From a virus: DNA of 29,216 nucleotides. The notes under the pieces were generated by a model that searched no databases, was not told the origin of the DNA, and saw only the letters and a list, made by a program, of their open reading frames with translations. The position numbers and the translations under genes are program-made. The stretch spans positions 1 through 29,216 of the IMG/VR virus record IMGVR_UViG_3300017757_000089; one strand, given 5' to 3'. Of this stretch, positions 6,282-29,216 are shown one piece after another (positions within the stretch are counted from its first letter, which is position 1; the number at the start of each line of letters is the position of its first letter).

Positions 6282-6439
6282 TCGCCCTCCTTTAGCACAT
6301 AGTGCCCTAGGCTGTTATTAACTACTTCTAAGTCTTGCACTAGTCGTTTTATTTTATCATTGAATATAATATTATTCTTATTCAAATGACCTTCGTGTCT
6401 TATAGACCACGCTTTGTCTATCTTTATTTCTTTACTCAT
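6263..6439 (-). CDS. Hypothetical 58-residue protein
   Basis: This small gene is complete from ATG 6439 to TAA 6263. GGAGG lies five bases before the ATG, its start overlaps the upstream stop as ATGA, and its end overlaps the next gene, whose own ribosome site lies inside it. The protein is basic, starts MSKEIKIDKAW and has a central helical segment with Lys, Arg, Val and Glu. No family is recognised. The strong ribosome site and the same ATGA linkage used by its neighbours make it a convincing gene despite the short length. Confidence 0.65.
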   Translation of the reverse strand: MSKEIKIDKAWSIRHEGHLNKNNIIFNDKIKRLVQDLEVVNNSLGHYVLKEGEWTKTK

Positions 6440-6756
6440 TCTTCCTCCAATTCAAAGTCTGACCAGTCTCTACATTCGCTACATATAGCAACGCCTATGT
6501 CTCCGTCTTCTACTAATTCTGTTATAGCACTACCGCCACAACAAGTAGACATCCAAACTTTATCGTCTCTATCTATCATTTCCATAATACCTTCTTCGTG
6601 TTCAATCATTGTTTCCTCGCATTGTTCACATTCTTTAACATTAATACTTGGCTCGTCGCCCTCATGTCTATTGCCACACTTACAAACAACCGTTGGCTCC
6701 CATAGACCTTTAGACGACTCGCTCTTTTCAGTTGATATGAATCCAAGATAACTCAT
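6436..6756 (-). CDS. Double zinc-ribbon protein
   Basis: The acidic 106-residue protein has eight cysteines in two clusters, C25/C27 with C43/C46 and C72/C73 with C92/C95, so two small zinc knuckles or one larger pair are likely. The second cluster, 'MSTCCGGSA...ICSECRDWSDF', looks like small phage zinc-ribbon proteins that I cannot name. The strongly acidic C-terminus argues against direct DNA binding and suggests a protein partner. It starts and ends in four-base ATGA overlaps with its neighbours. No separate ribosome site is visible before the ATG, so coupling to the upstream gene is likely. Confidence 0.75.
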   Translation of the reverse strand: MSYLGFISTEKSESSKGLWEPTVVCKCGNRHEGDEPSINVKECEQCEETMIEHEEGIMEMIDRDDKVWMSTCCGGSAITELVEDGDIGVAICSECRDWSDFELEEE

Positions 6757-7277: not shown

Positions 7278-9032
7278 TTACAACATATAGTCACGTAATA
7301 AATCATAGTCTACTTGTTGTTTTGCACCATGCTCACTTATAAAGTCATCTCGTCTGTCGTCATTGACTAACAAGAATGTATCTTTGAATATGTCTTTATA
7401 TTCAAACCTACAAGTGTTTTTGTCAAACTCTACAATCGTATCTACAGAACCAAATACGTCATTGTAGAATTTTGTCGCAACGTGTTCTTCCATAGACAAT
7501 CTCAATTGCTCAGTTCTACCTTTGTAAAAATCCTGAGTTTCTTTGTCTATTTCAAACACGTCAAAGATATTCTCTATCGACATTACAGACCTATCAATTC
7601 TATTTCTTAAATAGTAAACCATAGGCTTTAATAGATAAGGTCTATCTTTTTTAGGTAAACCAAGATATCGTCGTAATACCTCAGATTTTTTCCTATACTC
7701 ATATACGTCAGTAGACTGACCTACGTCGGAACTATGTGAAAAACTATCACCATGGTACCTAGTTGACAACTTTGCAAGTTTTGTCTTTATCGACGGAGGC
7801 ATTGTCAAAGACTGATACATCGACGATGAACCAAAATCGTAGTCATTCGTCATTTGTTCAGTTATCTCAAAAGACTTGTCAACGACTTGCGTCCAAAACT
7901 TCGTCCAATGTTTGATTTTCTCTTTTTGCAACGTACCTGAATGATAACGTATTTCCAGACCTTGATTGGCTTGAAAGTGGCTATGCCAATTCAGTCCAAC
8001 GTATCTTTTGTCGTTATACTTATCGTTTGTATAACCACCATTGTCGTAGAAGAAGTCTATAAATTCATCTCTACTACTGACATATTGAAAATCGTAGACT
8101 GGTTGTGTAACAGGTCTAGACCAACGTTGATGTCCACTACCATAGTATCTAGACTTAGGCAACCACGTATAAATATGTGGCTCCATTAGTTTAGTAAATA
8201 GTGTTAAGACACAACAATGTATCCAGTCGTAGTCTTGGACATCTATATGTAAGTGAAGTCCAGTCTTGAAAGAAGCATATGCATTCCATTCTTGTTCTAG
8301 ACGTTTACACATAAAGTCTGCATCTTCAATTACCTTATCTCCACGACGTGGACGCATTACAAGTTCTGCGCCATATCTATGTGCTGAACTTGTAACACTA
8401 CCATCAGACACAACAGAACTTTTACCTAAACGATAAAAATCGTCTTGGTTATCTGTGTTTCTTGTTTTTCCAAGTGCGAAGTTAAGGTCGTCTTGGACGT
8501 CTCCTAAACTCTCGTCATACCTGAAGTTAGTCTCCAGTTCTAGTCCAACGTATCTTTTTGACTCTATCATATAGAATGTGTCGTTACGATAATAGTCTGA
8601 CTCAGGATTTACGAATGTAGTTCTTGTTTTGACGAATGAATTTGAATAGACTTCCCACTCGGGGTAGCTATTTGATTCATGTTCTTCGTAACAATAATCA
8701 CATAGGTAATCTCCATATCTGTCTGACCATACCATATCGTCCCTGTGACATTCAGTGCCACATTCGGGACATTCCTGACAAATATCGTTATGACAAGACA
8801 TACATCTGAGGTCGCCATTGAAATCGTACGTATCATCACTATGTAAAGTCGTACTACACTCATAACATTCTGTGTAGTTTTCGTCATAACAATCATGACA
8901 TACAAGTTCTGACGTGTCGTTTTCAGTAAAGTCTGATACGGAATTAGTTTCGACGCTACAATCTACACAACAATACATTTCATTGTTTAGTTCTTCTTGT
9001 ACTTCTTGACTTAATCCGTCGCTACTATTCAT
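7278..9032 (-). CDS. Amidoligase (PF12224-like, COOH-NH2 ligase) with three N-terminal zinc ribbons
   Basis: This 584-residue protein has a Cys-rich N-terminus with three CxxC pairs of pairs (C22/C25-C45/C48, C56/C59-C77/C80, C88/C91-C111/C114), probably three zinc ribbons or LIM-like modules. The rest matches the glutamine-synthetase/GCS-fold amidoligase family: VGLELET (162-168), SDGSV (209-213), GAELVMRP (221-228), TGLHLHID (257-264) and, later, GLEIRYHSGTLQ. These provide the acidic metal and ATP ligands. It should join a carboxylate to an amine using ATP, making an amide on a small molecule, peptide or protein. The gene starts eight bases inside the glutamine amidotransferase gene and is followed by a terminator. 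The paired amidotransferase would supply ammonia or process the product. The substrate is unknown. Confidence 0.85.
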   Translation of the reverse strand: MNSSDGLSQEVQEELNNEMYCCVDCSVETNSVSDFTENDTSELVCHDCYDENYTECYECSTTLHSDDTYDFNGDLRCMSCHNDICQECPECGTECHRDDMVWSDRYGDYLCDYCYEEHESNSYPEWEVYSNSFVKTRTTFVNPESDYYRNDTFYMIESKRYVGLELETNFRYDESLGDVQDDLNFALGKTRNTDNQDDFYRLGKSSVVSDGSVTSSAHRYGAELVMRPRRGDKVIEDADFMCKRLEQEWNAYASFKTGLHLHIDVQDYDWIHCCVLTLFTKLMEPHIYTWLPKSRYYGSGHQRWSRPVTQPVYDFQYVSSRDEFIDFFYDNGGYTNDKYNDKRYVGLNWHSHFQANQGLEIRYHSGTLQKEKIKHWTKFWTQVVDKSFEITEQMTNDYDFGSSSMYQSLTMPPSIKTKLAKLSTRYHGDSFSHSSDVGQSTDVYEYRKKSEVLRRYLGLPKKDRPYLLKPMVYYLRNRIDRSVMSIENIFDVFEIDKETQDFYKGRTEQLRLSMEEHVATKFYNDVFGSVDTIVEFDKNTCRFEYKDIFKDTFLLVNDDRRDDFISEHGAKQQVDYDLLRDYML

Positions 9033-10077
9033 TGTAGACCTCTACTCTTTCAAAAGAATCCAGTCCATACTTGTCTTCAAACATCTGTTCTTCACTATAT
9101 ACATTTTCAGTATTAGGACAGACGTAATACCAAGTATCGTCAGAATCGTCAAAAAACCAAGACTGAGGACTTGTCTGAAAGATATTAGCTAACTCAGTTG
9201 CTTCGTCGCTAAGCCAAGCTTTTGACCAATCGCTTTCATCGTCATCATCATATCCAAGCTCTACTTCTTGTGCATAGTCTAAGCTAGACTTATACGTTCC
9301 ATAAGTGCTTGTCGGATAACGATTGACATTCCATTGATATGTTCTTGACTGATACTCGAACAATGTCTTTTCTACATTAGTCTTTAAATCGTCAAACTTC
9401 GACGTATCAAAAGCATATAATGTATTTTTGTTAAGACTATAAACGTCTGCTTTTATATTATGCATCGCTAAAGCATCGTCAATAAATGACGATTCGCTTG
9501 CATAGAACAACGTTTTAAGTTCAGGAATGTATGCAACGTGTAAAGGACGATTCGTCTCTCTACACAAATACAATACCATTGGATTTTTCTTAACGAAGGA
9601 TAACGCAAAGTCGCTGTCAAAATCTTTGACTGCATCTTGTATGTTATCGTTGCTATCTATTGACTTAAAGATAAGCTGTGAGTCTACTGGACATTGTTTG
9701 TCTAGTTTACTTTGCATTTCTTTAATATTGTAAACGCAACCATTGTGAGCTCCGACGACGTCGCCGACTCTAAATGGGTGTGCGTTCGATTTGACTATTG
9801 CTCCTTCTGTCGCAAATCGTGTATGTCCAAGCAATATATATGACTGGTCAATTAATGACTTGACTGCATTATTATATTCTTTGGAGTCTACGAATTTGCC
9901 AGACGGCAATAGTGATTTATATACTCTAGTGCTAGTCCCGACCTTAGCAATACCAGACGAATGAGACCCTCTAGTCTCACTATCTGTTGCTATTTCACGC
10001 AACACCTTTTTGACAATTTTATGTTGTCTCTTAGTGTACGGCGTCGGCGACTTTGCTATTCCATATATACCACACAT
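9025..10077 (-). CDS. Class II glutamine amidotransferase (Ntn hydrolase)
   Basis: The 350-residue protein begins MCGIYGIA, so after Met removal Cys2 is the N-terminal nucleophile of class II amidotransferases. Other family marks are RGSHSSG (36-42), GHTRFATEG (84-92), AHNGCVYN (110-117) and the VDS near 131-133, corresponding to the glutamine site. It would hydrolyse glutamine or a gamma-glutamyl amide. After about residue 240 comes an acidic, Tyr/Trp-rich tail with no recognised synthetase domain. A stand-alone glutaminase domain next to an amidoligase strongly suggests that the two act together. AAGGAG precedes the ATG. The gene overlaps the amidoligase start by eight bases, so the two proteins are made together. 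Confidence 0.87.
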   Translation of the reverse strand: MCGIYGIAKSPTPYTKRQHKIVKKVLREIATDSETRGSHSSGIAKVGTSTRVYKSLLPSGKFVDSKEYNNAVKSLIDQSYILLGHTRFATEGAIVKSNAHPFRVGDVVGAHNGCVYNIKEMQSKLDKQCPVDSQLIFKSIDSNDNIQDAVKDFDSDFALSFVKKNPMVLYLCRETNRPLHVAYIPELKTLFYASESSFIDDALAMHNIKADVYSLNKNTLYAFDTSKFDDLKTNVEKTLFEYQSRTYQWNVNRYPTSTYGTYKSSLDYAQEVELGYDDDDESDWSKAWLSDEATELANIFQTSPQSWFFDDSDDTWYYVCPNTENVYSEEQMFEDKYGLDSFERVEVYNE

Positions 10078-10080
10078 AGT

Positions 10081-10221
10081 CTAATCTCCTTTGTTTTTGT
10101 TTAAAATCCCTATATCCTGTATAGGCGAAGTATGCGACGAATACATATCGGTGCGAAAGGAATAACACCCAGACAAATCGACTATTTGTCCATACTGATT
10201 ACGACTCGTCGCTATAATCAT
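10081..10221 (-). CDS. Hypothetical 46-residue protein
   Basis: The frame from ATG 10221 to TAG 10081 starts MIIATSRNQYGQ and is rich in Ser, Gln, Ile and Asp. Its ATG overlaps the stop of the upstream gene as ATGA, and its final codons contain the AAGGAG ribosome site of the amidotransferase gene. That tight fit on both sides is the main reason to accept it. No family or motif is recognised, and its own ribosome site is weak, so translation probably depends on coupling. Confidence 0.5.
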   Translation of the reverse strand: MIIATSRNQYGQIVDLSGCYSFRTDMYSSHTSPIQDIGILNKNKGD

Positions 10222-10433
10222 TGTGTGCCTACTACTGTAAGCCAAAATTTTTCTCTTGTTGATAGTCGCTTTGCTTGATTGCGACTATAGGTATAACGTA
10301 TGTTGTCCATACCAATAAAATTATCATATTTTCTTTTAACAAACCATAGGCGTCGCTTGTAAGCAAGACGTTTTTGTTGTTGTCTTGTTAGCTTACGTGG
10401 ACGCCCGTTCTTATCTGGTTTAAGGTATATCAT
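10218..10433 (-). CDS. Small highly basic protein
   Basis: The 71-residue protein carries many Arg and Lys residues ('RPRKLTRQQQKRLAYKRRLWFVKRKY' region, residues 11-36) with aromatic residues between them. A nucleic acid-binding role is likely, but no family is recognised. Its ATG follows the stop of the coiled-coil gene directly (TAAATG), and its stop overlaps the next ATG. It is part of the leftward operon leading to the amidotransferase and amidoligase. Confidence 0.65.
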   Translation of the reverse strand: MIYLKPDKNGRPRKLTRQQQKRLAYKRRLWFVKRKYDNFIGMDNIRYTYSRNQAKRLSTREKFWLTVVGTQ

Positions 10434-10655
10434 TTATATGATTGCCTTTGTAATCTCATAGTTCTCACGTCTGACGTCTTCTAAGTCTTGACGTAGTTTT
10501 GCGATGTCTTGAACTACTTTGTTTTTCTTATCTTGTACGACTTCATTTTCTGAATAGAAATTGAAAATCGCCGACTGCAATTCCTTAATTTGTCTATCAA
10601 TACCTGATAACATTTGCAAATTGCGTCTATGCGTTTTTATCTTGTCTTCTATCAT
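10434..10655 (-). CDS. Small coiled-coil protein
   Basis: The 73-residue protein is a near-continuous amphipathic helix with Leu, Ile and Val at heptad-like spacing ('MLSGIDRQIKELQSAI', then 'KLRQDLEDVRREN'), so it probably forms a coiled-coil dimer. AAGGA lies upstream of ATG 10655. It overlaps the 46-residue Cys-containing gene by 29 bases at its start, and its stop abuts the next ATG. Function unknown. Confidence 0.65.
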   Translation of the reverse strand: MIEDKIKTHRRNLQMLSGIDRQIKELQSAIFNFYSENEVVQDKKNKVVQDIAKLRQDLEDVRRENYEITKAII

Positions 10656-10767
10656 TTTTCTTTTCCTTTTTATCTACCGAATTAGGTATAGTCTTGCGTC
10701 CATCTATACCACGTCCGTCCATTCCTGGGAATGGTCTTGTTTTACTAGTATTGCAATTATTACACAT
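10627..10767 (-). CDS. Small MCxxC protein
   Basis: The 46-residue frame from ATG 10767 to TAG 10627 begins MCNNCNTSKTRPFPGMDG and ends in a Lys/Asp/Arg-rich tail. The MCxxC start resembles small metal-binding or redox peptides. With only one CxxC, zinc would have to be shared in a dimer. A purine-rich GGAAAGAGAG precedes the ATG at a slightly long distance. The reading frame has a non-random composition with repeated Asp-Gly turns, which supports real coding. Confidence 0.45.
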   Translation of the reverse strand: MCNNCNTSKTRPFPGMDGRGIDGRKTIPNSVDKKEKKNDRRQDKNA

Positions 10768-10860
10768 TGCGTCTGCTCTCTTTCCTAGACACTATTAGTC
10801 TAGCTTTCTTATTTACAAAAAATATAAAAAATCTGTTATCGTCTATAAACATACTATCGT

Positions 10861-11277
10861 CTATAACCTGCCTGGCGTCCAGACTCTACGTGCTTGACGA
10901 TATGCCTTGCGTAGTGTCTTTAATGCGTCTTGTATGTTGGTTGCGTCAAGTGTAATACGTCTGTCACTTATCTCGTAAGTGTCCATAATATTGGACTCGA
11001 CACGTAGATATGTATTGTCTTTTAGTTGTTGCTGTGCGAACACAGAGATAAAGACTATTGCATTATTGAATGTCAAGTCTGTTACTACGTCTGTGTCTCC
11101 ATTAAGACTAGTATCTATTACGTCGTGATACTCTATTGTCAAGTCTACTTTACTATTACTACCCATAACGACATAAAATGTCAATCCGTCGATTGGTGCA
11201 GGTACGTCAACCTCTCTAGTCCAACGTTGCTTACAACAAGGACAAGGCTCACTAATTGTCTGTTTTACTGTTTTCAT
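10861..11277 (-). CDS. Hypothetical protein with N-terminal CxCC
   Basis: The 138-residue protein starts with a Cys cluster (C12, C14, C15, in 'EPCPCCKQRW') resembling half of a zinc ribbon, followed by 'TREVDVPAPIDGL' and a beta-rich middle ('VDLTIEYHDVI', 'VVTDLTFNNAIVFISVF'). The C-terminal 40 residues are helical and basic. No family is recognised. AAAGGAAATAAT precedes the ATG. It is the first gene of the long leftward block, so its promoter should lie in 11278-11560. The nearest promoter-like site there is TTGACC at about 11506-11501 with an AT-rich -10 region. Confidence 0.65.
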   Translation of the reverse strand: MKTVKQTISEPCPCCKQRWTREVDVPAPIDGLTFYVVMGSNSKVDLTIEYHDVIDTSLNGDTDVVTDLTFNNAIVFISVFAQQQLKDNTYLRVESNIMDTYEISDRRITLDATNIQDALKTLRKAYRQARRVWTPGRL

Positions 11278-11406
11278 ATTATTTCCTTTCTCCCGACGCT
11301 ACGCCTGAAATCGTCGCTGGCTTGGTTGCTATCGGGTTTTTTCTCATGCCCAAACTTACAAAATTTTAGCGACAATACCTAGAACTCAATTGTCCAGCAT
11401 AGTCTA

Positions 11407-11482
11407 TATTGTCGGGGGAACTGAGCTAGACTTAATTTAGTCTAGCTCTAGAGTTAGAGTCTAGCTCTGATTTTTTATAAAA
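11407..11482 (+). repeat. Hairpin element A, copy upstream of the 120-residue gene
   Basis: Core TATTGTCGGGGG (11407-11418) is followed by a perfect 10-pair inverted repeat, GAGCTAGACT (11423-11432) and AGTCTAGCTC (11439-11448), then a second weaker stem and TGATTTTTTATA. A related element with the same order lies 600 bases downstream. At the one stem position that differs, both arms have changed together, so the pairing is kept. It could act in RNA as a terminator-like or processing structure, or in DNA. Confidence 0.7.
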
Positions 11483-11536
11483 AAAAATTATCGTCGTTCG
11501 GTCAAGAAGAAATCTTGATAAATATGCGAATATTCC

Positions 11537-11571
11537 TTGACTCTAATGTTTAAAATCGTCAATTTATGGGT
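11537..11571 (+). promoter_or_regulatory. Promoter-like site for the 120-residue gene
   Basis: TTGACT (11537-11542) is followed after 17 bases by CAATTT (11560-11565), similar to the TAATTT at 13150. The expected start, seven bases later, is the A of ATG 11572. There is no ribosome site before that codon. The -10 match is weaker than at 2433 and 5835. Confidence 0.5.
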
Positions 11572-11934
11572 ATGAGTAACAAGTTAAAAACAGATGCTTT
11601 TGCCAAACTCTTAGCTAAGACAGGTTTGACACAAGAACAATTAAAAGCTATGGACATAGAAGTTCTTGAAGCATCATCTAACGAAGGGCGTATCCTTGAG
11701 AACGCGTCCAAGGTTTTAGCATCTCAAGACGATAAAGCGGTTCAAAAAGATATGAATCGTTTAGTCGAAATCGTAAACAATAAGGACGTGTTAAACGTTA
11801 CAGAAGGGAACGAATTAATACGTAATTACAAAGACAACTTTGTATATTCCAAAAAGAAAACAATTGATGGCGAAAAAAAAGACGTTGATTGTTATCCAAG
11901 ACTCAGTTTTAAAATTGAGTCTATCGAAGTATAA
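11572..11934 (+). CDS. Hypothetical protein, single rightward gene in the control region
   Basis: I do not recognise this 120-residue, helical, Lys/Glu/Asn-rich protein. The first part ('TDAFAKLLAKTGLTQEQLKAMDIEVLEA') has a helix-turn-helix-like look, but no clear DNA-recognition helix is visible. The C-terminus 'YPRLSFKIESIEV' looks like a beta strand. I use ATG 11572 rather than the in-frame ATG 11566, because the promoter geometry puts the transcript start at 11572. It is the only rightward gene between two leftward units and is enclosed by two related hairpin elements, so it behaves like an independently expressed moron. An early regulator or host-takeover role is possible, but not shown. 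Confidence 0.65.
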   Translation: MSNKLKTDAFAKLLAKTGLTQEQLKAMDIEVLEASSNEGRILENASKVLASQDDKAVQKDMNRLVEIVNNKDVLNVTEGNELIRNYKDNFVYSKKKTIDGEKKDVDCYPRLSFKIESIEV

Positions 11935-11942
11935 ACAAAAAT

Positions 11943-11996
11943 CCCCGAGTTTAGTCGGCTCGGGGTATTCTCTAGGGGCTAGGAATCTAGCCCCTA
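11943..11996. terminator. Two strong hairpins after the rightward gene
   Basis: The first hairpin has CCCCGAG (11943-11949) and CTCGGGG (11959-11965); on the minus strand it is followed by ATTTTTG. The second is a perfect 10-pair stem, TAGGGGCTAG (11973-11982) and CTAGCCCCTA (11987-11996), with a GAAT loop. They begin nine bases after the stop of the rightward gene and could end transcription from either side. The plus-strand T-run is weak. Confidence 0.55.
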
Positions 11997-12006
11997 AAAT
12001 CTAGGA

Positions 12007-12073
12007 TATCGTCGGGGGTTAGAGCTTGACTGAGGGACGATAGTCAAGCTCTAGAGCTGTTGATTTTTTTATA
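12007..12073 (+). repeat. Hairpin element B, downstream copy
   Basis: Core TATCGTCGGGGG (12007-12018) is followed by a perfect 12-pair stem, arms 12020-12031 and 12042-12053 with a ten-base loop, then CTAGAG and TGATTTTTTTATA. It is related to element A in order and sequence. The stem position A-T in A is T-A in B, keeping the pair. The two cores are exactly 600 bases apart and enclose one gene. Confidence 0.7.
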
Positions 12074-12079
12074 TATACC

Positions 12080-12114
12080 AAAAAAAGAAAGCCCCAGGTT
12101 TTTATACCCAAGGC
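12080..12114 (-). terminator. Rho-independent terminator of the small leftward cassette
   Basis: On the minus strand GCCTTGGG (12114-12107) pairs with CCTGGGGC (12098-12091) across an eight-base AT loop and is followed by TTTCTTTTTTT. Three pairs are G-T on this strand and would be A-C in plus-strand RNA, so the direction is leftward. It lies nine bases after the stop of the 51-residue gene. Confidence 0.75.
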
Positions 12115-12122
12115 ATCTTTGT

Positions 12123-12278
12123 TTATGATTTGTAAGAATCTGGACAATCCTCAGATGAACAATTACATTTGTATCCATCTTCGTAGCCTTCTATATAACT
12201 CGTAGCCTTTGTATATTCTATTGTCATACCAAGTGCCCAAACAGTCATAACCACTGCATACATTATTAATATTCCCAT
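12123..12278 (-). CDS. Small membrane protein with Cys-rich C-terminus
   Basis: The 51-residue frame runs from ATG 12278 to TAA 12123 with AAAGGA eight bases before the ATG. Residues 2-21 are hydrophobic (ILIMYAVVMTVWALGMTI) and should form one membrane helix. The remainder is polar with C38, C40 and C45 near the end. No family is recognised. Small single-helix phage proteins in early regions often act on the host envelope, but nothing specific can be claimed here. It is the second gene of a leftward cassette, downstream of a very stable hairpin and followed by a terminator. Confidence 0.65.
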   Translation of the reverse strand: MGILIMYAVVMTVWALGMTIEYTKATSYIEGYEDGYKCNCSSEDCPDSYKS

Positions 12279-12301
12279 TTTTAGTTTCCTTTCGGTTGTG
12301 A

Positions 12302-12317
12302 CGGGGCCGAAGCCCCG
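12302..12317 (-). promoter_or_regulatory. Very stable GC hairpin with UUCG loop between two cassette genes
   Basis: On the minus strand CGGGGC, TTCG, GCCCCG forms a six-pair stem closed by C(UUCG)G, the most stable tetraloop. It lies in the 48-base gap between the 78-residue gene and the 51-residue gene, with no T-run after it. It probably stabilises the upstream mRNA end or tunes read-through rather than acting as a full terminator. Confidence 0.6.
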
Positions 12318-12326
12318 CCGTTGTTG

Positions 12327-12563
12327 TTACTCTCTATCTTCATCTTTCCAGTCTATCATATCGCTAATGTCTTCGCATTGTTCAAGGTTGAAGCCCGCCC
12401 ATTTCAAGAACTTGGTTCTATCAAATCTTGGGTTGTCATCCTCAAAGTATTGTATTAACATAGCCGCGAAAGCAGTAGCCGAACCAATCATTCTAATACC
12501 ATCCGCTTTGTCAGTGAACGGGTGAAAACAGTCAGCTATTGCTTCATAGTCTTTCTTAGTCAT
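12327..12563 (-). CDS. Conserved phage hypothetical protein (MTKKDYxAIA type)
   Basis: This 78-residue protein resembles a widespread small phage family, which I recall but cannot name, starting MTKKDYEAIAD and containing a C-terminal NPRFDRTKFLKWAG motif. The function is unknown in that family. I use ATG 12563, which has AAAGGA seven bases upstream and fits the family start. An in-frame ATG at 12599 would add 12 residues and coincides with the expected transcript start of the promoter just upstream, so a leaderless longer form is possible. It is the first gene of a two-gene leftward cassette. Confidence 0.7.
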   Translation of the reverse strand: MTKKDYEAIADCFHPFTDKADGIRMIGSATAFAAMLIQYFEDDNPRFDRTKFLKWAGFNLEQCEDISDMIDWKDEDRE

Positions 12564-12598
12564 TGTATATCCTTTCATTTTATTAGTTATTATTAACA

Positions 12599-12633
12599 TA
12601 ACACAAAGTACATACTCTATAAATTAAAGTCAA
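12599..12633 (-). promoter_or_regulatory. Promoter-like site for the leftward two-gene cassette
   Basis: On the minus strand TTGACT (12633-12628), 17 bases, then TACTTT (12610-12605). The expected start falls on the ATG at 12599, 36 bases before the likely real start codon with its ribosome site. It shares the -35 box with the other sites; the -10 box is less similar. Confidence 0.5.
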
Positions 12634-12986
12634 GGATTATTTAAAAAATAATTAAAAAAGTTGTCGTCTAATTAATTAAAAAAATCAACATATATAACCA
12701 AAAACCAAATTTTCAACCAAATCTAGAATTTTCAATCTGGAAAAAGACCCGCCGCCACTTATGAAACAAAAGCCACACACAAAATCCTGCTATTTTTCAA
12801 CAAGGGTTGGAATTTTGGGATAAAACTGGTGAGGTGATAAAAAACGACGACTAGAATAATTTTGGAAAAAATTTTTCGATTAGACCCTCTCTAGAACACC
12901 GAGCATTATTTAAGATATAGATTTAATATTCTTAATTATTCTTTAAGCACGAACATTAGTGTTTTTTTTCGTCCTTCGGACTGTTA

Positions 12987-13016
12987 AAGTTATAGTGTTT
13001 GCCTTGTTTGAGTCAA
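12987..13016 (-). promoter_or_regulatory. Orphan leftward promoter-like site
   Basis: TTGACT (13016-13011), an 18-base spacer, then TAACTT (12992-12987) on the minus strand. No open reading frame follows for several hundred bases, and the small hairpin GTCCGAAGGAC begins almost at the expected start. It may drive a small RNA or a long leader of the leftward cassette. Confidence 0.4.
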
Positions 13017-13125
13017 TATATTTCTTTCATCTTGTTAATATTTTTTAGATTTCTAGCAAAATCAAGAGCATTAGAGTCTAGAACATTGAGTTATTGACGT
13101 GTCGTGCGGTTTTTTAAAAAAATAT

Positions 13126-13155
13126 TTGACTTGTGTAGCAGTTTATAGTTAATTT
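13126..13155 (+). promoter_or_regulatory. Promoter-like site for the rightward block
   Basis: TTGACT (13126-13131), 18 bases, then TAATTT (13150-13155). The transcript would start near 13162, leaving a short leader with TGGGAG before ATG 13186. It uses the same -35 box and spacing as the leftward sites and is placed at the head of the long rightward operon. Confidence 0.6.
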
Positions 13156-13185
13156 GCATACACAATTAATTACTATGGGAGTATT

Positions 13186-13506
13186 ATGAGTAAAAAAGAA
13201 ACAAAAAAAGCAATGGAACTGACTATTGGAGGTCACCATTACAAGATAGTAGAATTACCACTTACGCATGAAGATGCAAGTAAAGAACTATATGGAAGAC
13301 ATATGGTAAAAGACAATATCATACTTATCAACAATGAAATACACGAATCAAGAAAGCAAGAAACGCTAGTACACGAGGTATTACACGCTATATTCTATAA
13401 TTATGGACTAGAACACAAAGAAGGCTTAATTGACGCTATATCAAACGGATTATTTCAACTAGGAGTAGGAGAGTATCTATGGAAGACATCAAAAAAGCAA
13501 TCTTAA
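13186..13506 (+). CDS. ImmA/IrrE-like or related zinc metallopeptidase
   Basis: The 106-residue protein contains HEVLH at residues 63-67 in a helix (ETLVHEVLHAIFYNYGL), the zinc-binding HExxH motif. Acidic residues downstream (Glu76 or Glu79) may give the third ligand. The arrangement resembles short phage proteins of the ImmA/IrrE-like peptidase group. It may cleave a host or phage regulator, but the substrate is unknown and a structural role is possible. GGGAG lies four bases before ATG 13186. It is the first gene of the rightward operon and overlaps the next by 28 bases. Confidence 0.75.
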   Translation: MSKKETKKAMELTIGGHHYKIVELPLTHEDASKELYGRHMVKDNIILINNEIHESRKQETLVHEVLHAIFYNYGLEHKEGLIDAISNGLFQLGVGEYLWKTSKKQS

Positions 13507-13664
13507 AGGCAAAAGAACAGGGTAATACTGCATTAGTGCAACGATTACAGCAAGAACTAGATGAATTAGAAAAAATACGTCAAAACCTTAATTGGGATAA
13601 ACTAATACGTGAATTAGAAGATGTCAAAGATACGGAGGATTTTCCAGATGAATCAGAAAACTAG
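13479..13664 (+). CDS. Small coiled-coil protein
   Basis: The 61-residue protein is charged and helical from residue 2 to about 50 (AILKAKEQGNTALVQRLQQE and onward) and ends in an acidic tail. It probably forms a coiled coil. AGGAG lies seven bases before the ATG, inside the end of the metallopeptidase gene. Its end overlaps the next gene by 17 bases. No family is recognised. Confidence 0.7.
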   Translation: MEDIKKAILKAKEQGNTALVQRLQQELDELEKIRQNLNWDKLIRELEDVKDTEDFPDESEN

Positions 13665-14007
13665 TACAAAAGAAGATATAGTATCGTATATAAAAGATAA
13701 CTATCCTTCAACCGAAAAAGAATTTCAGACTCTTTTAAATGAAATGTACTTAACATTTTGTAAGAAACAGTTTGATTATGGTCCTGGCAATATTGCTATG
13801 GGTACCACGTTGAAAAACGAAAAAGAAGTCAATACAGCCTTATTTGGTATAATTGTAAGGCTTAATGATAAGATAAACAGACTAATCAATTTGTCAACAA
13901 ACCATAATATGAAAGCAAAAAACGAACCAATAGAAGATGCTTTCTTAGATATTTCAGTTTATGCAGTAATGGCATTGATAGTTAAACAAAACAAATGGGG
14001 CAAGTAA
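13648..14007 (+). CDS. DUF1599/Nmad1-like protein, possible MazG-type nucleotide hydrolase
   Basis: The 119-residue all-helical protein has the pattern I associate with DUF1599 (nucleotide modification associated domain 1): 'KKQFDYGPGNIAMG' (about 40-53), 'RLNDKINRLINL' (about 71-82) and 'IEDAFLDISVYAVMAL' near the end, where the Glu and Asp residues would bind metal and a nucleotide. Such proteins are relatives of MazG and dUTPase-type pyrophosphohydrolases and often occur with phage base modification. I chose ATG 13648, with GGAGG upstream, over the in-frame ATG 13621. No base-modifying enzyme is visible next to it, so its substrate is open. Confidence 0.6.
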   Translation: MNQKTSTKEDIVSYIKDNYPSTEKEFQTLLNEMYLTFCKKQFDYGPGNIAMGTTLKNEKEVNTALFGIIVRLNDKINRLINLSTNHNMKAKNEPIEDAFLDISVYAVMALIVKQNKWGK

Positions 14008-14732
14008 TGGCTGTAAGATGGACAGACGATGAAATAAGAATATTGGACCAGTACGGGAGAAGTGCTAAGTCTGCATTCGTACTGTATCAAGAAATACGTA
14101 TTGCTGGATATAATAGAACATATAAAGCAGTATCTAGAAAAATAGAATCCTTGGGATTAAGGAAGCCTACTAGATATACAACTGGACACGAAATGACAAT
14201 AGGATATTTAGACATTGAATCTACTGGATTTAGTGCTAATATCGATGTTATGTTATCTTGGTGTATTAAAGGTAGAGGTAATAAGAAAGTAGCAGGAGCT
14301 AAGATTACAAGACAAGAGCTTATGTCTGAAAAACAAGATGCTCGTATTGTAGAGCTTCTAGTAGAAGAAATGAATAAATACGATGTAATATTTACATACT
14401 ACGGAACTAGATTTGATATTCCGTTTATTAGAACACGTGCATTGTATCATAAAACATTCTTCCCGCTATATAGGCAAAAATCACACAAAGACCTATATTA
14501 TGTGGTAAAATCTAAATTAAAACTACATCGCTCGTCATTAATGGCAGCTACAGAGTTTTTTGGTATTGCTGGTAAAACCAGAGTAAAACCAGAAATGTGG
14601 CAAAAAGCACGTTGGGGCGATGAGAAAGCTATGAAATATGTTTATGACCATAACGTAGCAGATGTAGTAATATTAGAAAAACTGCATAGAAAACTAGAAG
14701 AATATGCACCACCAATGGTTAGACCACTGTAA
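14007..14732 (+). CDS. DEDD-family 3'-5' exonuclease (RNase H-like, YprB type) with N-terminal HTH-like domain
   Basis: The 241-residue protein has an N-terminal Myb/HTH-like segment (RWTDDEIRILDQYGRS to about residue 55). A ribonuclease H-like exonuclease follows, with LDIES (Asp69, Glu71), YYGTRFDIPFI (Asp137) and YDHNVADV (His215, Asp219). These four acidic residues fit the DEDD two-metal site. It may degrade or proofread DNA. A DNA polymerase is not encoded nearby, so it is probably a free-standing nuclease that could be targeted by the HTH. I start it at ATG 14007 in a TAATG overlap with the previous gene; ATG 13995 is an alternative. Confidence 0.78.
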   Translation: MAVRWTDDEIRILDQYGRSAKSAFVLYQEIRIAGYNRTYKAVSRKIESLGLRKPTRYTTGHEMTIGYLDIESTGFSANIDVMLSWCIKGRGNKKVAGAKITRQELMSEKQDARIVELLVEEMNKYDVIFTYYGTRFDIPFIRTRALYHKTFFPLYRQKSHKDLYYVVKSKLKLHRSSLMAATEFFGIAGKTRVKPEMWQKARWGDEKAMKYVYDHNVADVVILEKLHRKLEEYAPPMVRPL

Positions 14733-14744
14733 TTAGGAGGAAGA

Positions 14745-14978
14745 ATGGCTAATAAAGAAGAACAACTAGTAATAATGAGCGAAGGTAAAGAGATTAAGTT
14801 CTATATGTCTGACTTGTCAGATGAAGCTAAAGCTCAGTATTCAAGAGCAAATGAACTTGCTTCAAAGCTAATGAGATTAGACAGAGAAGCAAATGAGGTA
14901 AGATTCCTTGCTAATAACTATGTTAGATTTGTTATTGACGAACTTGAAAAAGACGTTGACGATAACGAGGAAAAATAG
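14745..14978 (+). CDS. Small helical phage protein (DUF6447-like)
   Basis: The 77-residue protein has a short N-terminal beta-like part and then 'LSDEAKAQYSRANELASKL' and a long charged helix ending in an acidic tail. The pattern is like small proteins of cyanophage-type viruses that I recall as DUF6447. The function of that family is unknown. AGGAGG is found eight bases before the ATG, a strong ribosome site. It lies directly before the terminase genes. Confidence 0.65.
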   Translation: MANKEEQLVIMSEGKEIKFYMSDLSDEAKAQYSRANELASKLMRLDREANEVRFLANNYVRFVIDELEKDVDDNEEK

Positions 14979-14985
14979 TTAAGTT

Positions 14986-15747
14986 ATGAGAGAACGTATT
15001 GTAAAAGGCGTTACTCATTATTTGTATGATGACGTCAATGAGTTTCGAGAGCATCACGAAGGTGTTGCTTTGGTTACAGATTGGCGTCACTCAAATAAGG
15101 GAGACTGGATACAAACTGACGATGGTCAAGTATGTCAAGTATTATTTCTTGGAATACTTAAAAAGAAAGACAGAAAAAAAGAAACATCGTTTATAAGAAG
15201 TATAATGGGTTCTTATGTTTGTAATCCCTCTGTTATGATAGAAGGTGATATGAAAACAAATATGCATACATTTTCTACAGCAGGAGAATCTCCTTCTGTT
15301 AGGAAGAAAAACAGAAAACATGCTACAGATAAAGAGTTTTTATTTGGAAAGTATGTTGCAAAAGGAGACGATGTGGTTGAAGCTTATATGAAAGCGTTTC
15401 CTAGTAAAAACGAAAATTATGCTAAATCACAAGCAAAATTATTATTAAAAACAGACAGGGTGAAAAACTTGATTAGAGAAGAAATAGACAAATACTTGAA
15501 TGAAGCGGAGATTACTCCCAATTATCTGTTAGAAGAGATGAGAGATATTATAGATAAAGGAGGCTCTTCGGATAGAGATAAGATTACAGCAATAACAACA
15601 TTAATGAAGATATCTGGAATGATGGACACGGAAAAGACTACAGAGTCTTTAACGTTATTCCAAGGCTTTACAAAGGAGCAATTAAATGCAATTCAAGGGT
15701 CCCAACACAAAAAACTGGCGGAAGTTAAAAAAGATAACGAAAAATAA
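14986..15747 (+). CDS. Terminase small subunit, with N-terminal extension
   Basis: The 253-residue protein has a helical region from about residue 110 to 215 that fits the terminase small subunit family: 'KEFLFGKYVAKGDDVVEAYMKAFP' followed by 'SQAKLLLKTDRVKNLI' and 'LEEMRDIIDKGGSSDRDKITAITTLMKISGMM'. It recognises packaging sites and loads the large subunit. The first 100 residues are a separate unrecognised domain with no counterpart in the shortest family members. A weak site (AGTTATG context) precedes ATG 14986. The 3' end overlaps the zinc protein by 62 bases. The large subunit follows after two small genes. Confidence 0.7.
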   Translation: MRERIVKGVTHYLYDDVNEFREHHEGVALVTDWRHSNKGDWIQTDDGQVCQVLFLGILKKKDRKKETSFIRSIMGSYVCNPSVMIEGDMKTNMHTFSTAGESPSVRKKNRKHATDKEFLFGKYVAKGDDVVEAYMKAFPSKNENYAKSQAKLLLKTDRVKNLIREEIDKYLNEAEITPNYLLEEMRDIIDKGGSSDRDKITAITTLMKISGMMDTEKTTESLTLFQGFTKEQLNAIQGSQHKKLAEVKKDNEK

Positions 15748-15913
15748 TCGTTGTTATATATGTCATCATCGTCTTAGTAAAACAGCTGTATTTTTATACA
15801 GCAAAAGAAAAGAAGATACAACTCATATAAAATGCTTTAATTGCTTAACAGTATATAACACATCTTTTGGAATAACAGATGTAGGTATACCAGAACAGGT
15901 AGGCAATGCATGA
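15686..15913 (+). CDS. Small zinc-ribbon protein
   Basis: The 75-residue protein has C23/C26 (CYIC) and C50/C53 (CFNC), a single zinc ribbon, after a basic N-terminus. AAGGAG lies seven bases before ATG 15686, inside the small terminase gene, so the 62-base overlap is probably real. The stop overlaps the next ATG as ATGA. No family is recognised. Zinc ribbons beside terminase genes may help packaging or transcription, but that is inference. Confidence 0.65.
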   Translation: MQFKGPNTKNWRKLKKITKNNRCYICHHRLSKTAVFLYSKRKEDTTHIKCFNCLTVYNTSFGITDVGIPEQVGNA

Positions 15914-16317
15914 GGCTAGCAGTATATGGAACATTAAGAAGAGGTTTTGAAGAGACTGGTAAAGTAGAAGGCTTTAGTCTTGTTTTTCCTGGACATAAAA
16001 ATTTTCCAGCTTTAATTAAGAACAAAAATGGAAAAGGAGCTGTAGTAGAAGTGTTCGAAGCTACAGAAGAAGATTTGAATATGTATGATACTTACGAGTC
16101 TACAGAAAACGGTCTTTATATAAGAACAACAGCTAACATAGTACTAGATGATACAAAAGAAAAAGAAAAATGCTGGATATATGTAGCTGGACCTTTGTTA
16201 TGGCAAAGTTCTAGTATGTTTACAGAGGTACCAGATGGAGATTGGCTTTCACCTAAAACGTTAACAATGATGGACAGAGTCTATGAAAAAGAATACCAAG
16301 AATCCAGAGAATTTTAA
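15910..16317 (+). CDS. AIG2-like gamma-glutamyl cyclotransferase
   Basis: The 135-residue protein has VYGTLRRG at 5-12, the phosphate/carboxylate-binding loop of this family, then 'GAVVEVFEATEEDLNMYDTYE' with Glu63 as the likely catalytic acid, and 'GLYIRTTANIV...CWIYVAGP' closing the barrel. It would release 5-oxoproline from a gamma-glutamyl amine or peptide. The length is normal for the family. It is coupled to the zinc-ribbon gene by ATGA and overlaps the large terminase by 35 bases. As I recall the Pfam notes, amidoligase genes of the type at 7278-9032 are found with glutamine amidotransferases or AIG2 proteins, so this may be the third part of the same pathway. Confidence 0.82.
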   Translation: MRLAVYGTLRRGFEETGKVEGFSLVFPGHKNFPALIKNKNGKGAVVEVFEATEEDLNMYDTYESTENGLYIRTTANIVLDDTKEKEKCWIYVAGPLLWQSSSMFTEVPDGDWLSPKTLTMMDRVYEKEYQESREF

Positions 16318-17869
16318 TATAATACCACCAGACCTTTCTCAGAAAGAAAAGGCTTTAGAGTTGGCAAAAAAAGACATAGTTACTTTTGGTCAAATGTTTT
16401 TACCAGAAGATTTTATGAAATCAACTCCTGCTCCATATCAATATCAGTTAAGTGATATACTTCTAGGAGATGAGAAGCGTATATGTATAATACTTCCCAG
16501 AGGTCATGCAAAATCTACTTTAGCAAAAACAGCTTTATTACATCAACTATATTTCTCTCCTCCAGAAAAGAAACAATTTATCGCCTGGGTTTCAGAAGAA
16601 CAATCTCAAGCTATTGACCATATTAAATACATACAAAATCATATAGACGTAAACCCTGCATTACAATATTACTTTGGAGACTTAAAAGGAAGTAAATGGA
16701 CTGAAAAAGAATTTACCACAGCTAGAGGAGATAGAATTATAGCTAAAGGTACTAGTCAAAGATTGCGTGGTCGTTCACAGTTAGGTCTTAGATATACTAA
16801 TATTATCCTTGACGACTTTGAATCAGAGTTAAATACTAAAACACCAGATAGAAGAAGAGAGATAAAAGAATGGGTAATGTCTACAGTAGAACCCGCATTA
16901 GAAAACTCCAAAGAAAACGAAGGTTCAATATGGCTTATTGGTACAATAGTCCATTATGACTCTTTTCTTCAAGGCGTATATGATGGATGGCTAGATGCTG
17001 AAAAAGAAAAAAGAAAGTCTGCTTGGCAAGTACTATACAAAAAAGCTATAGTAGACGACACTCCTTTATGGCCTAGTTATTTTACAAAACAAAAACTTAT
17101 AGATATAAAAAGAAGGTTCACAGAAATGGGACTTGTACATAAGTTTGCTCAAGAATATCTAAATGAAGCTAGAGATTTAGAAAGCGCGAAGTTTCATATT
17201 GACAGAATAAATTATTATAAAGGAAATCTTGTAGAGAGAAATGGATTTAATTATATGATGGTTGACGAGTCTGCTATTCCAGTAAATGTATACATGGGAG
17301 TTGACTTAGCTTATGAAGCTAATGCAAGAAGTGACTATCAGGTTATAATGGTAATTGCCATTGATAGTGATAGAAATATATATGTAGTTGATTATTATAG
17401 AGAACATTCTCCTTTGTATGATATGCCTAAAAAAATTGTAGACATGGCAAAAGAGTTTCATCCAGTAAGAAGAGTAAATGTAGAAAAAGTTGGTGCGCAG
17501 GGACTGGTAAAAGATTATGTTAATCAACTGGTTGGAAAAGAAAGAAAGCTTGCTCCAGGATTGTCTCAAGGAGTAAGACCTCCTGCTGGTATAAAAAAAG
17601 AAGATAGGTTAGAAGCGTTACTTTGTCCTATAGTTAACAGAAGAAAATTGTTTATAAAAAAAGAACATGCTAACTTAGTCGACGAAATGTTTGAGTTTCC
17701 AAAAGGTAGAAATGACGACTTGTTAGACGGTCTTTGGTATGCTGTCACTACAGCAAAGCCTCCAAAAAGTTCTGCAATCGACGCAGGAAAGCTAGAAGAC
17801 AGAATAGAAAAAATACAAGGAAGTAAAGCAAAACAAGTCATAAACTGGGTTACTGGACAGAAAATATAA
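16283..17869 (+). CDS. terL: Terminase large subunit (packaging ATPase-nuclease)
   Basis: The 528-residue protein has a Walker A LPRGHAKST (71-79), Walker B IILDDFE (174-180) and a C-terminal RNase H-like nuclease with GVDLAYE (Asp341) and NDDLLDGLWYA near residue 480. It cuts concatemers and pumps DNA into the head. The start has no strong ribosome site and lies 35 bases inside the AIG2 gene, so translation is probably coupled. The gene is followed by a 64-base gap that holds a promoter-like site for the portal. Confidence 0.93.
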   Translation: MKKNTKNPENFNIIPPDLSQKEKALELAKKDIVTFGQMFLPEDFMKSTPAPYQYQLSDILLGDEKRICIILPRGHAKSTLAKTALLHQLYFSPPEKKQFIAWVSEEQSQAIDHIKYIQNHIDVNPALQYYFGDLKGSKWTEKEFTTARGDRIIAKGTSQRLRGRSQLGLRYTNIILDDFESELNTKTPDRRREIKEWVMSTVEPALENSKENEGSIWLIGTIVHYDSFLQGVYDGWLDAEKEKRKSAWQVLYKKAIVDDTPLWPSYFTKQKLIDIKRRFTEMGLVHKFAQEYLNEARDLESAKFHIDRINYYKGNLVERNGFNYMMVDESAIPVNVYMGVDLAYEANARSDYQVIMVIAIDSDRNIYVVDYYREHSPLYDMPKKIVDMAKEFHPVRRVNVEKVGAQGLVKDYVNQLVGKERKLAPGLSQGVRPPAGIKKEDRLEALLCPIVNRRKLFIKKEHANLVDEMFEFPKGRNDDLLDGLWYAVTTAKPPKSSAIDAGKLEDRIEKIQGSKAKQVINWVTGQKI

Positions 17870-26363: not shown

Positions 26364-29216
26364 ATGGCAACGCTTACAGGACAAAGAATAAAAGACAGTT
26401 ATAAGGATTTATTACAGGTATCTAATAGTAATTCTGGAATTGATGGAACATTAAGAACTATCTCAGACGGAGAAGCTACAGAGAGTGTGCTACAAATTAG
26501 TAGTTCTGCTGTTAACATATCCTCAGCAGGTGCGCTTGAGTATGCTGGTGTTTCTATCACTTCTACGGGCGATGAACTTAATATCCTTGATGGTGTCACA
26601 TCTAATGCAACAGAATTAAATATATTAGATGGCGTAACAGCTACGACTGCAGAACTAAACATTCTTGACGGTGTTACAGCAAGCGCTGCAGACATTAATC
26701 TTATAGATGGTATAACAAACGGAACAGTAATAGCAAGTAAAGCTATTATAACAGATTCAAACAAAGACATTACTGGCGGTAGAAACATAACTATTAGCGG
26801 AGAATTAGACGCAGCAACATTAGATATTAGTGGAGATGCGGACATAGATGGAACATTAGAAGCTGATGCGATTACAGTAAATGGAACTGCTTTAAATACA
26901 GTTATTGCAGGAGTTACAGTAGCAAATGCAACATTAGCTGCAACTACAACAGTATCAGATAGCACAGCAAACACAAACTTTCCAGTTGTATTTCATGACG
27001 AATCAAATGCACTATTAGACGATACAGGTGCTTTACGATATAATCCAAGCACAGGAACGTTATTAGTTCCTAATCTTTCTGTTGCTGGTACTACAACAAC
27101 TGTGGACACAGTAACTATGGAAGCAGCAAATGCTATTATATTTGAAGGTGCTACAGCAGATGCACACGAAACTACTTTATCTATTGTTGACCCAACAGGA
27201 GATAGAACAATTAATTTACCAAATGTATCTGGTACTATACCAGTATTAGCAGCTGCTTCAACAACACAAATCTCTGCAACACCAGAAGAACTAAATGTTT
27301 TAGATGCAGTAACTGCAGGTACGGTTACTGGAAGTTTGGGAGTAGTAGTTGATAGCAATAAAGATATTGGCACATTTAGAAACATAACACTATCAGGAGA
27401 ATTAGATGCAGGTAGTTTAGATATTTCAGGAGACGCCGACATTGATGGTACTTTGGAAGCAGATGCTATTACTGTAAACGGAACTACTTTATCAGAGCTT
27501 ATATCAGATACCGCAGGAGCTATGATGTCAAGCAATACTGAAAGTGGTATTACTGTTACCTATCAAGATGCAGATAACACAATAGATTTTGCTGTTGACG
27601 CAGCGCAGACAGGAATTACTTCTTTATTAGCAACAGATATTAAGATTGGAGAAGATAATGAAACAAAAATAGATTTTGAAACTGCTAATGAAATACATTA
27701 TTATTTAAATAACCAACAACTATTATCTATGGCTAATGCTAGCTCAGGCAATCTTGAACTAACTTTAGGAGTAGCAGATAAAAACTTTACTATCAAAGGA
27801 ACCGACGGAGCAAGCGCTATTACACCTTTTGATATTGATATGGCAGCAGTTGGTAAGATTACCTTTAATGGAGCATATAGTTTCCCAACATCAGATGGTT
27901 CTTCAGGACAATTTTTGAAAACAGATGGTAGCGGTACATTAACATTTGATACACCGCCTACTGCGGCTATAACAGCTGTAAATAATGCTACTGCAAATGA
28001 ATTGGTAACAATAGGTTCTACTACAACAGAATTAGATGCAGAAGCCAATCTTACTTTTGATGGAACAGATTTAAAACTACTTGGCGATAATTTGGAAATG
28101 AGATGGGGCGATAGTGAAGATTTTAAAATTTATGTTGATACAGTTACTGCCTATCTTAAAAATGCAACTCAAGATGGAGATATAAGACTTCAAGTTAATG
28201 ATAATGGTAGTAATATAACTGCTATTAAAATTGATGGAAGTGAAGTAGGAGAAGTTGGACTTCCTAATGATAATCAAAAATTAACGATTGGCGATGGCGA
28301 TGATTTGGCTTTATTCCACGATGGAACAGACACTAAAATAGAGAACAGTACTGGCGATTTAATTATTCAAAATGATGCTACAGATAAAGATGTAATATTA
28401 AAATCAGACGATGGTTCAGATGGTATGACTGCCTACCTAACATTAGATGGTAGTGTAGGAAGAACAGAGTTTAATAAAAATATAAAACTAGCAGATGATA
28501 TTGTAATACAACTTGGAACACACCTTGATTTAAAACTATATCACGATGGCTCTAATAGTTATATAGAACAAAATGGAACTGGAGATTTAATTATTCAGCA
28601 AGGAACAACAGATAAAGACATCATACTTAAATCAGATGATGGAAGCGGTGGAGAAACTACTTACCTAACCTTAGATGGTAGCACAACAAATTTATTATTA
28701 TCTCCACCAGGTAATGTCTTAATAGGTGGAACAAGTGCATCAGGACACACTTACAATTTGGAAGTATTGAATGATAATGTTTATGTTCAAGGACCTGATG
28801 GTTGGAATGGTGCTGGAGATTTAGCTATTGTAGCATTAGGTAGTTCAGCAGTAAATGAAAACTTTGGGTGTGGTTATAAGTATGGAACTGGACTAATATT
28901 ATCTACTTATAAATCAGGTGGTAATGGTACTTTTGGTAGTAGTAGTTATGATGCTTTGACAATATTAGATACTTCAGGTAATGTAGGTATAGGAACTACA
29001 TCACCTACTGCTAAATTAGTTATTGATGGTGGTGGAGATGCTGATGCTGATGCTGGAGATGCTTCTGAATATTCATTGTTAATTAATCAAGACAACAATG
29101 ATAAAGGTATAGCATTTGGATTTAATGGTGCTGATAATAAAATTGGTGCAGCTATTATTGCTAAAGGAAGTGGATATAATTCTAATAATAAAACAGATTT
29201 ACAATTTTATGTAAAA
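26364..29216 (+). CDS. Tail fibre protein, partial (cut by window end)
   Basis: The open frame runs from ATG 26364 to the last base (951 codons) with no stop, so the protein is larger. It is Asp/Gly/Thr/Ser-rich and repetitive: LNILDGVT-type repeats near residues 70-118, two long repeat pairs, and 'GNVGIGTTSPTAKLVIDGG' toward the end, a common motif of fibres in marine phages. It would recognise the host surface as a trimer. The N-terminal part 'MATLTGQRIKDSYKDLLQVS' is the likely particle-binding segment, as in T7-like fibres. The receptor-binding tip is outside the window. Confidence 0.85.
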   Translation, partial: MATLTGQRIKDSYKDLLQVSNSNSGIDGTLRTISDGEATESVLQISSSAVNISSAGALEYAGVSITSTGDELNILDGVTSNATELNILDGVTATTAELNILDGVTASAADINLIDGITNGTVIASKAIITDSNKDITGGRNITISGELDAATLDISGDADIDGTLEADAITVNGTALNTVIAGVTVANATLAATTTVSDSTANTNFPVVFHDESNALLDDTGALRYNPSTGTLLVPNLSVAGTTTTVDTVTMEAANAIIFEGATADAHETTLSIVDPTGDRTINLPNVSGTIPVLAAASTTQISATPEELNVLDAVTAGTVTGSLGVVVDSNKDIGTFRNITLSGELDAGSLDISGDADIDGTLEADAITVNGTTLSELISDTAGAMMSSNTESGITVTYQDADNTIDFAVDAAQTGITSLLATDIKIGEDNETKIDFETANEIHYYLNNQQLLSMANASSGNLELTLGVADKNFTIKGTDGASAITPFDIDMAAVGKITFNGAYSFPTSDGSSGQFLKTDGSGTLTFDTPPTAAITAVNNATANELVTIGSTTTELDAEANLTFDGTDLKLLGDNLEMRWGDSEDFKIYVDTVTAYLKNATQDGDIRLQVNDNGSNITAIKIDGSEVGEVGLPNDNQKLTIGDGDDLALFHDGTDTKIENSTGDLIIQNDATDKDVILKSDDGSDGMTAYLTLDGSVGRTEFNKNIKLADDIVIQLGTHLDLKLYHDGSNSYIEQNGTGDLIIQQGTTDKDIILKSDDGSGGETTYLTLDGSTTNLLLSPPGNVLIGGTSASGHTYNLEVLNDNVYVQGPDGWNGAGDLAIVALGSSAVNENFGCGYKYGTGLILSTYKSGGNGTFGSSSYDALTILDTSGNVGIGTTSPTAKLVIDGGGDADADAGDASEYSLLINQDNNDKGIAFGFNGADNKIGAAIIAKGSGYNSNNKTDLQFYVK
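26574..26716 (+). repeat. LNILDGVT short repeat in the fibre
   Basis: Four copies of an ELNILDGVT-like unit (the fourth reads INLIDGIT) occur every 12-13 residues, and a fifth, weaker copy (LNVLDAVT) is at about 27290. The DNA copies differ in many third positions, so these are old protein repeats rather than recent tandem DNA copies. They probably make a shaft of the fibre. Confidence 0.75.
26754..26909 (+). repeat. Fibre long repeat unit 1, first copy
   Basis: This 52-residue unit starts DSNKDITGGRNITISGELDA and ends in VNGTALNTVI. It matches the block at 27351-27506 in about 40 of 52 positions by eye, both exactly 156 bases long. This indicates an internal duplication of the fibre shaft. 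Confidence 0.7.
27351..27506 (+). repeat. Fibre long repeat unit 1, second copy
   Basis: This copy starts DSNKDIGTFRNITLSGELDA and shares SGDADIDGTLEADAITVNGT with the block at 26754-26909. The two are 597 bases apart, a likely site for recombination that would lengthen or shorten the fibre. Confidence 0.7.
28302..28454 (+). repeat. Fibre long repeat unit 2, first copy
   Basis: This 51-residue block, 'DLALFHDGTDTKIENSTGDL' and onward to 'LTLDGS', matches the block at 28527-28682 in most positions. It includes the HDG and ILKSDDGS motifs typical of trimeric fibre repeats. Confidence 0.7.
28527..28682 (+). repeat. Fibre long repeat unit 2, second copy
   Basis: This 52-residue block, 'DLKLYHDGSNSYIEQNGTGD' and onward, repeats the preceding block with one extra residue. 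The 72-base spacer between the two also codes shaft-like sequence. Confidence 0.7.

Follow-up and report, generated by a model that had tools for sequence, protein, structure and literature searches.

A reduced and rearranged amidoligase cassette of the phiEco32/RIO-1 type in a lineage of phages

The closest described systems to the locus considered here are the amide-bond cassettes of phages such as phiEco32, in which gp77 is a cyclotransferase of the GGACT family, gp80 an ATP-grasp protein (judged by its annotation as an S6 glutaminyl transferase and its similarity to annotated ATP-grasp proteins), gp83 a class II glutamine amidotransferase (GATase II), gp84 an amidoligase of Pfam family PF12224 and gp86 a ligase of family PF14395. 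Salmonella phage pSal-SNUABM-01 (Grimontviridae) also has PF12224, GATase II and GGACT proteins, with ATP-grasp and PF14395 proteins in addition. All three families have been published in the cassettes of UFV-P2 (PMC3890496) and PSA-HP1 (PMC5498523), and the RIO-1/PSA-HP1, UFV-P2/LUZ24-like and PA11 cassettes, built from the same enzyme families, comprise up to seven genes, including an ATP-grasp protein and a second ligase, are not divided over two operons, and have been suggested to alter peptidoglycan (PMC5498523, PMC3890496). In Arthrobacter cluster AL a cyclotransferase adjoins the amidoligase (PMC5513430). The marine OM43 phages MEP401 and MEP402 have PF12224 and PF13522 proteins, described as auxiliary genes in the part of the paper drawn on here, which reports no cyclotransferase such as the present locus has (PMC10580990). 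As presented in two papers, which credit Iyer et al. 2009 and Hardies et al. 2013, modification of peptidoglycan has been proposed for cassettes of the phiEco32/RIO-1 type (PMC5498523, PMC10580990).

Among 50,697 phage records, homologues number 185 for the phiEco32 cyclotransferase, 301 for the phiEco32 ligase and 335 for the amidotransferase of the present locus. By host name the counts, in that order, are 93, 92 and 92 for Escherichia, 11, 11 and 11 for Aeromonas, 8, 8 and 8 for Proteus, 7, 7 and 7 for Salmonella and 6, 6 and 6 for Cronobacter. Given the known cassettes and these near-equal numbers, the trio in one phage is both known and common. A preliminary description of the locus had held that such ligases occur with one or the other partner, so that finding all three was noteworthy; this has to be abandoned, as phiEco32, pSal-SNUABM-01, UFV-P2 and PSA-HP1 carry all three and more. 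To our knowledge, biochemical proof is lacking for any of the larger phage cassettes.

The locus lies in a viral record, IMGVR_UViG_3300017757_000089, whose 29,216 bases were analysed whole and are called the window. Replication and recombination genes run leftward and packaging and virion genes rightward, and tRNA genes are absent from the window. The open reading frames of the three enzymes (Table 1) have the coordinates that the preliminary description gave them, and PHROGs assignments (amidoligase, GlmS-like amidotransferase and gamma-glutamyl cyclotransferase) agree with those from Pfam. The portal protein of the lineage is P22-like. The phage collection held no cultured relative, the best TerL match being about 26% identical and the portal finding no match, and no relative from which a host could be assigned came up when ligase and TerL were run against 84,980 bacterial and archaeal genomes. 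Judged by phage type and the literature rather than by sample data, the lineage is probably marine.

Table 1. Coordinates of the enzyme genes, ligase domains and terminase genes in the window
Feature	Position	Strand	Remarks
Amidoligase	7278..9032	-	PF12224, 584 aa: LIM-like zinc array ~22-114, GS-fold core ~159-382 (likely fold), variable helical C-terminal region ~400-584
Ligase LIM-like zinc array	8691..8969	-	Six CxxC pairs; fastest-diverging part of ligase
Ligase catalytic core	7887..8558	-	Invariant motifs; fold match to YbdK and glutamine synthetase, best E 3.8e-3
Class II glutamine amidotransferase (Ntn glutaminase)	9025..10077	-	350 aa, Cys2 nucleophile
Gamma-glutamyl cyclotransferase (AIG2/GGACT)	15910..16317	+	135 aa, between TerS side and TerL
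Terminase large subunit (TerL)	16283..17869	+	phrog_38 E 1.5e-77; overlapped by cyclotransferase gene
Terminase small subunit (TerS)	14986..15747	+	Terminase_2 27.5 bits; other flank of cyclotransferase

Several other genes in the lineage deserve mention in their own right. Downstream of the ligase, at 6436-6756 (-), lies a small Cys-rich protein (CxC, CxxC, CC, CxxC) without a Pfam or PHROG match, whose cluster occurs in 31 of 33 loci and may merge several families. At 13186-13506 (+) there is a small putative metallopeptidase of the M78/IrrE type (22.9 bits against a cut-off of 22), which recurs wherever loci of the lineage extend that far. A very long repetitive open reading frame at 26364-29216 (+), with repeated ELNILDGVT motifs, runs off the end of the window and is probably a tail fibre. 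In two related genomes, G001 and G004, the Pfam lists include a DnaB helicase and no DNA polymerase family, which suggests that the host polymerase is used, or else an unrecognised one.

The ligase matches PF12224 (Amidoligase_2) with 60.2 bits against a cut-off of 22, over residues 159-382 and positions 2-243 of the 245 in the profile. Each of the 16 records that matched PF12224 did so exactly once. An alignment of 24 sequences shows the following to be invariant or nearly so: G163-x-E165-x-E167-x-N169, D210/S212, G221-x-E223, PRRGD at 228-232, G258-x-H260-x-H262-x-D264, E284-P285, KRYxGxNxHxHF at 342-353 and G358-x-E360-x-R362. The ExE, DxS, HxH and ExR motifs among them are presumably the active-site residues of a core like that of glutamine synthetase. 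Across loci the ligase is 34-89% identical with its reading frames intact, so the frame is not a chance one. A structure model built with 24 sequences (pLDDT 79) matched 44 viral proteins at E <= 1e-3, of which the named ones are mostly amidoligases and one is called a LIM-domain protein. Its fourteen best PDB matches, all weak (E 3.8e-3 to 4e-2), are to YbdK, a predicted glutathione synthase alike (GCS2) and glutamine synthetases. As the best of these E-values is no lower, a glutamine-synthetase fold for the modelled core is likely, not proved. Searching by sequence for a solved structure of a PF12224 relative returned none, the only matches being weak ones to McsA, LIM and GATA zinc fingers. 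From its family, the ligase is predicted to form amide bonds at the expense of ATP.

In front of this core the ligase carries cysteines at C22/25, C45/48, C56/59, C77/80, C88/91 and C111/114, again invariant or nearly so in 24 sequences. The preliminary description spoke of a zinc ribbon. A Cys-rich N-terminal stretch is indeed present; its six CxxC pairs are of a LIM-like type instead. The Pfam LIM profile recognises three stretches in the ligase of one relative, L066, with 25.2 bits (cut-off 22.9), and scores weakly, at 14.9 bits, in the ligase of the window; LIM folds also appear among the PDB matches of the model. The stretch had no match in the 50,697 named phage records, and the N-terminus of the pSal-SNUABM-01 ligase, in contrast to that of the window, is without the Cys array. 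When compared with relatives L006-L008, the zinc part has a dN of about 0.57 and the core one of 0.18. The usual partners of LIM domains are proteins, and for this reason a macromolecular target appears plausible for the ligase.

The amidotransferase begins with MCGIYG and matches GATase_6 with 50.6 bits (cut-off 27). Invariant in 22 sequences are Cys2, R36-G37, H85-T86-R87, H111-N112-G113, D132 and a CPVDS motif, and the structure model matches the glutaminase domain of GlmS (E 2.9e-13), as well as PurF and asparagine synthetase (AsnB). The protein thus has the N-terminal cysteine, the Ntn fold and the glutamine-site residues of the class II enzymes. It is without a synthase domain, in place of which come a low-confidence linker and a C-terminal extension of about 110 aa. 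An overlap of its gene with that of the ligase, 8 nt long in the window, recurs at 4-32 nt in each of the 38 loci measured, and translational coupling may be surmised from it.

The cyclotransferase matches GGACT (PF06094) with 55.9 bits (cut-off 22.8) and keeps YGTLRRG at 6-12 and E63, both conserved in relatives; E63 aligns with E82 of the solved GGACT, which we take to be the catalytic glutamate. The gene lies about 6 kb from the ligase on the opposite strand and overlaps TerL by 35 nt in the window and by 26-77 nt in all 86 loci measured. With all three proteins scoring above the curated Pfam cut-offs and retaining their catalytic residues, the preliminary description was right in naming an amidoligase with its key motifs, an overlapping class II amidotransferase with an N-terminal Cys and an AIG2-type cyclotransferase beside the terminase.

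Searches with ligase and TerL gathered 136 loci, all from one lineage and with some contigs entering more than once; wherever a locus covers the relevant region, the three genes are there. Of the loci holding both terminase subunits, 128 of 128 have the cyclotransferase. All 70 loci that extend 9 kb or more upstream of TerL have the amidotransferase and the ligase, as have all 32 in which both flanking genes are present. In 78 of 78 loci the ligase lies antisense to TerL, and hence to the cyclotransferase, in line with the division noted at the outset, with the ligase and amidotransferase leftward and the cyclotransferase among packaging genes. With co-occurrence universal in the loci checked, and the PF12224 match carrying its residues intact, neither independent carriage of the genes nor a degenerate ligase was seen. 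Within a single lineage such co-retention marks the three genes as core, from which one pathway does not follow; it could be the plain inheritance of core genes.

The rates of evolution differ between the genes. Against close relatives, dN/dS is 0.21-0.45 for ligase and amidotransferase, 0.07-0.15 for the cyclotransferase, 0.04-0.11 for packaging genes and 0.04-0.05 for TerL, figures that are limited by saturation and small gene size. By these values the ligase pair looks host-facing and the cyclotransferase housekeeping-like. Compared with relatives L003-L005, dS is 0.06-0.22 in the amidotransferase-ligase block and 0.89-0.98 in TerL, and a small gene at 10861-11277 likewise has a synonymous divergence far below that of TerL. 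So low a dS across 7278-11277, set against TerL, is a sign of block exchange, and suggests that the amidotransferase-ligase block was recently exchanged between related phages.

Neither the ATP-grasp nor the PF14395 ligase of the larger cassettes was found in 7,456 open reading frames of the lineage, searched with profiles and with single queries from four phages; the set includes five genomes of 46-57 kb whose completeness is not established, and as positive controls the queries recover one another with E-values of 1e-33 or better. A Pfam scan of two of those 46-57 kb genomes also found neither. On this ground the cassette is regarded as reduced.

The reading preferred here, with a probability of about 0.5, is that the ligase and glutaminase of this reduced cassette use ATP to amidate a carboxyl group of some host-linked target, be it a peptide, a protein or part of the cell wall, the cyclotransferase being separate or acting downstream. 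Coupled translation across the gene overlap would allow glutaminase and ligase to be made together. Cys2 of the glutaminase would take ammonia off glutamine, and the ligase, with its probable glutamine-synthetase fold, would activate the carboxylate with ATP and then add the ammonia, though it could use another amine. The target, a peptide, protein or cell-wall precursor, would be recognised by the fast-evolving LIM-like zinc domain. Produced along with the packaging genes, the cyclotransferase would convert gamma-glutamyl-amine bonds to 5-oxoproline, either in recycling or in a separate later step; given its opposite strand and different constraint, it may have nothing to do with what the ligase makes. 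A stricter version, in which a minimal, two-timed system has an early LIM-guided pair tag some rapidly changing target, a host protein or the cell wall, and a late cyclotransferase remove or recycle that tag, is decidedly improbable. Also considered was a short peptide, encoded next to the pair, as the substrate; it was set aside, as no neighbouring family with a fixed C-terminal residue occurs in all loci.

How the cyclotransferase relates to the pair bears on the three-part pathway of the preliminary description, of which the enzymes and their co-conservation are supported and the single pathway is not, the cyclotransferase being encoded in the packaging operon, on the opposite strand, and under stronger constraint. 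Its antisense placement relative to the ligase, its constant overlap with TerL and a dN/dS near that of packaging genes and below that of the pair would all fit a gene independent of the ligase, engaged in gamma-glutamyl recycling or linked to morphogenesis; this is a real, if doubtful, possibility, for the trio recurs in unrelated phages with the cyclotransferase about 1-8 kb from the ligase, which argues for a shared function. It is rather unlikely that the cassette alters side-chain peptides of host peptidoglycan and so blocks superinfection, as proposed for the phiEco32/RIO-1-type cassettes. The same three families do occur together in the phages for which that was proposed, and MurT/GatD sets a precedent for glutaminase-dependent amidation of peptidoglycan glutamate (PMC3267633), in which glutamine-derived ammonia and ATP amidate a carboxylate as in the pair proposed here. 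Yet searches of the lineage turned up neither the ATP-grasp nor the PF14395 ligase of those cassettes, and the LIM-like domain points to a protein as partner. A GGACT-type cyclotransferase, moreover, requires a free alpha-amino group on glutamate, which intact stem peptides do not offer. MurT/GatD has another ligase fold and a class I amidotransferase, and as a system is not homologous to the pair. We know of no experimental proof of a peptidoglycan role in any phage.

A resemblance of the ligase fold to YbdK and glutamine synthetase, along with the label of auxiliary genes given in the part of the OM43 phage report drawn on above to an amidoligase and GATase (PMC10580990), would suit a pair whose product is a small gamma-glutamyl amide metabolite, or whose effect is on host nitrogen metabolism, with the cyclotransferase degrading the product. 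Such a role is improbable for so large a ligase, in which the LIM-like and variable C-terminal regions would be superfluous for a free metabolite and the zinc part diverges fastest. Hypermodification of phage DNA or shielding of virion proteins has very little probability: the gene at 13621-14007 (+) has a sub-threshold match to DUF1599 (nucleotide modification associated domain 1; 23.4 bits, cut-off 25), and no other known base-modification enzyme was listed when two large related genomes were scanned with Pfam. As that match is the sole hint of it, DNA hypermodification was rejected as a candidate.

The lineage has a reduced and rearranged cassette of the phiEco32/RIO-1 type, its cyclotransferase moved into the packaging operon. 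One ligase, one glutaminase and one cyclotransferase, kept without exception in the loci checked, point to a minimal working core, and with so small a set, function could be probed in vitro with just two or three proteins. As in phiEco32, all three families are present with the GATase beside the PF12224 ligase. In phiEco32 the cyclotransferase shares strand and block with a ligase that is 367 aa long, compared with 584 aa in the window, and clustering in one block, a trait of the phiEco32/RIO-1 type, is not seen here, where the cyclotransferase is antisense to and separate from the pair. The lineage differs from the known cassettes in four ways: its reduction, the relocation of the cyclotransferase, the LIM-like array, and a fast-evolving ligase beside a cyclotransferase that evolves almost as slowly as the packaging genes.
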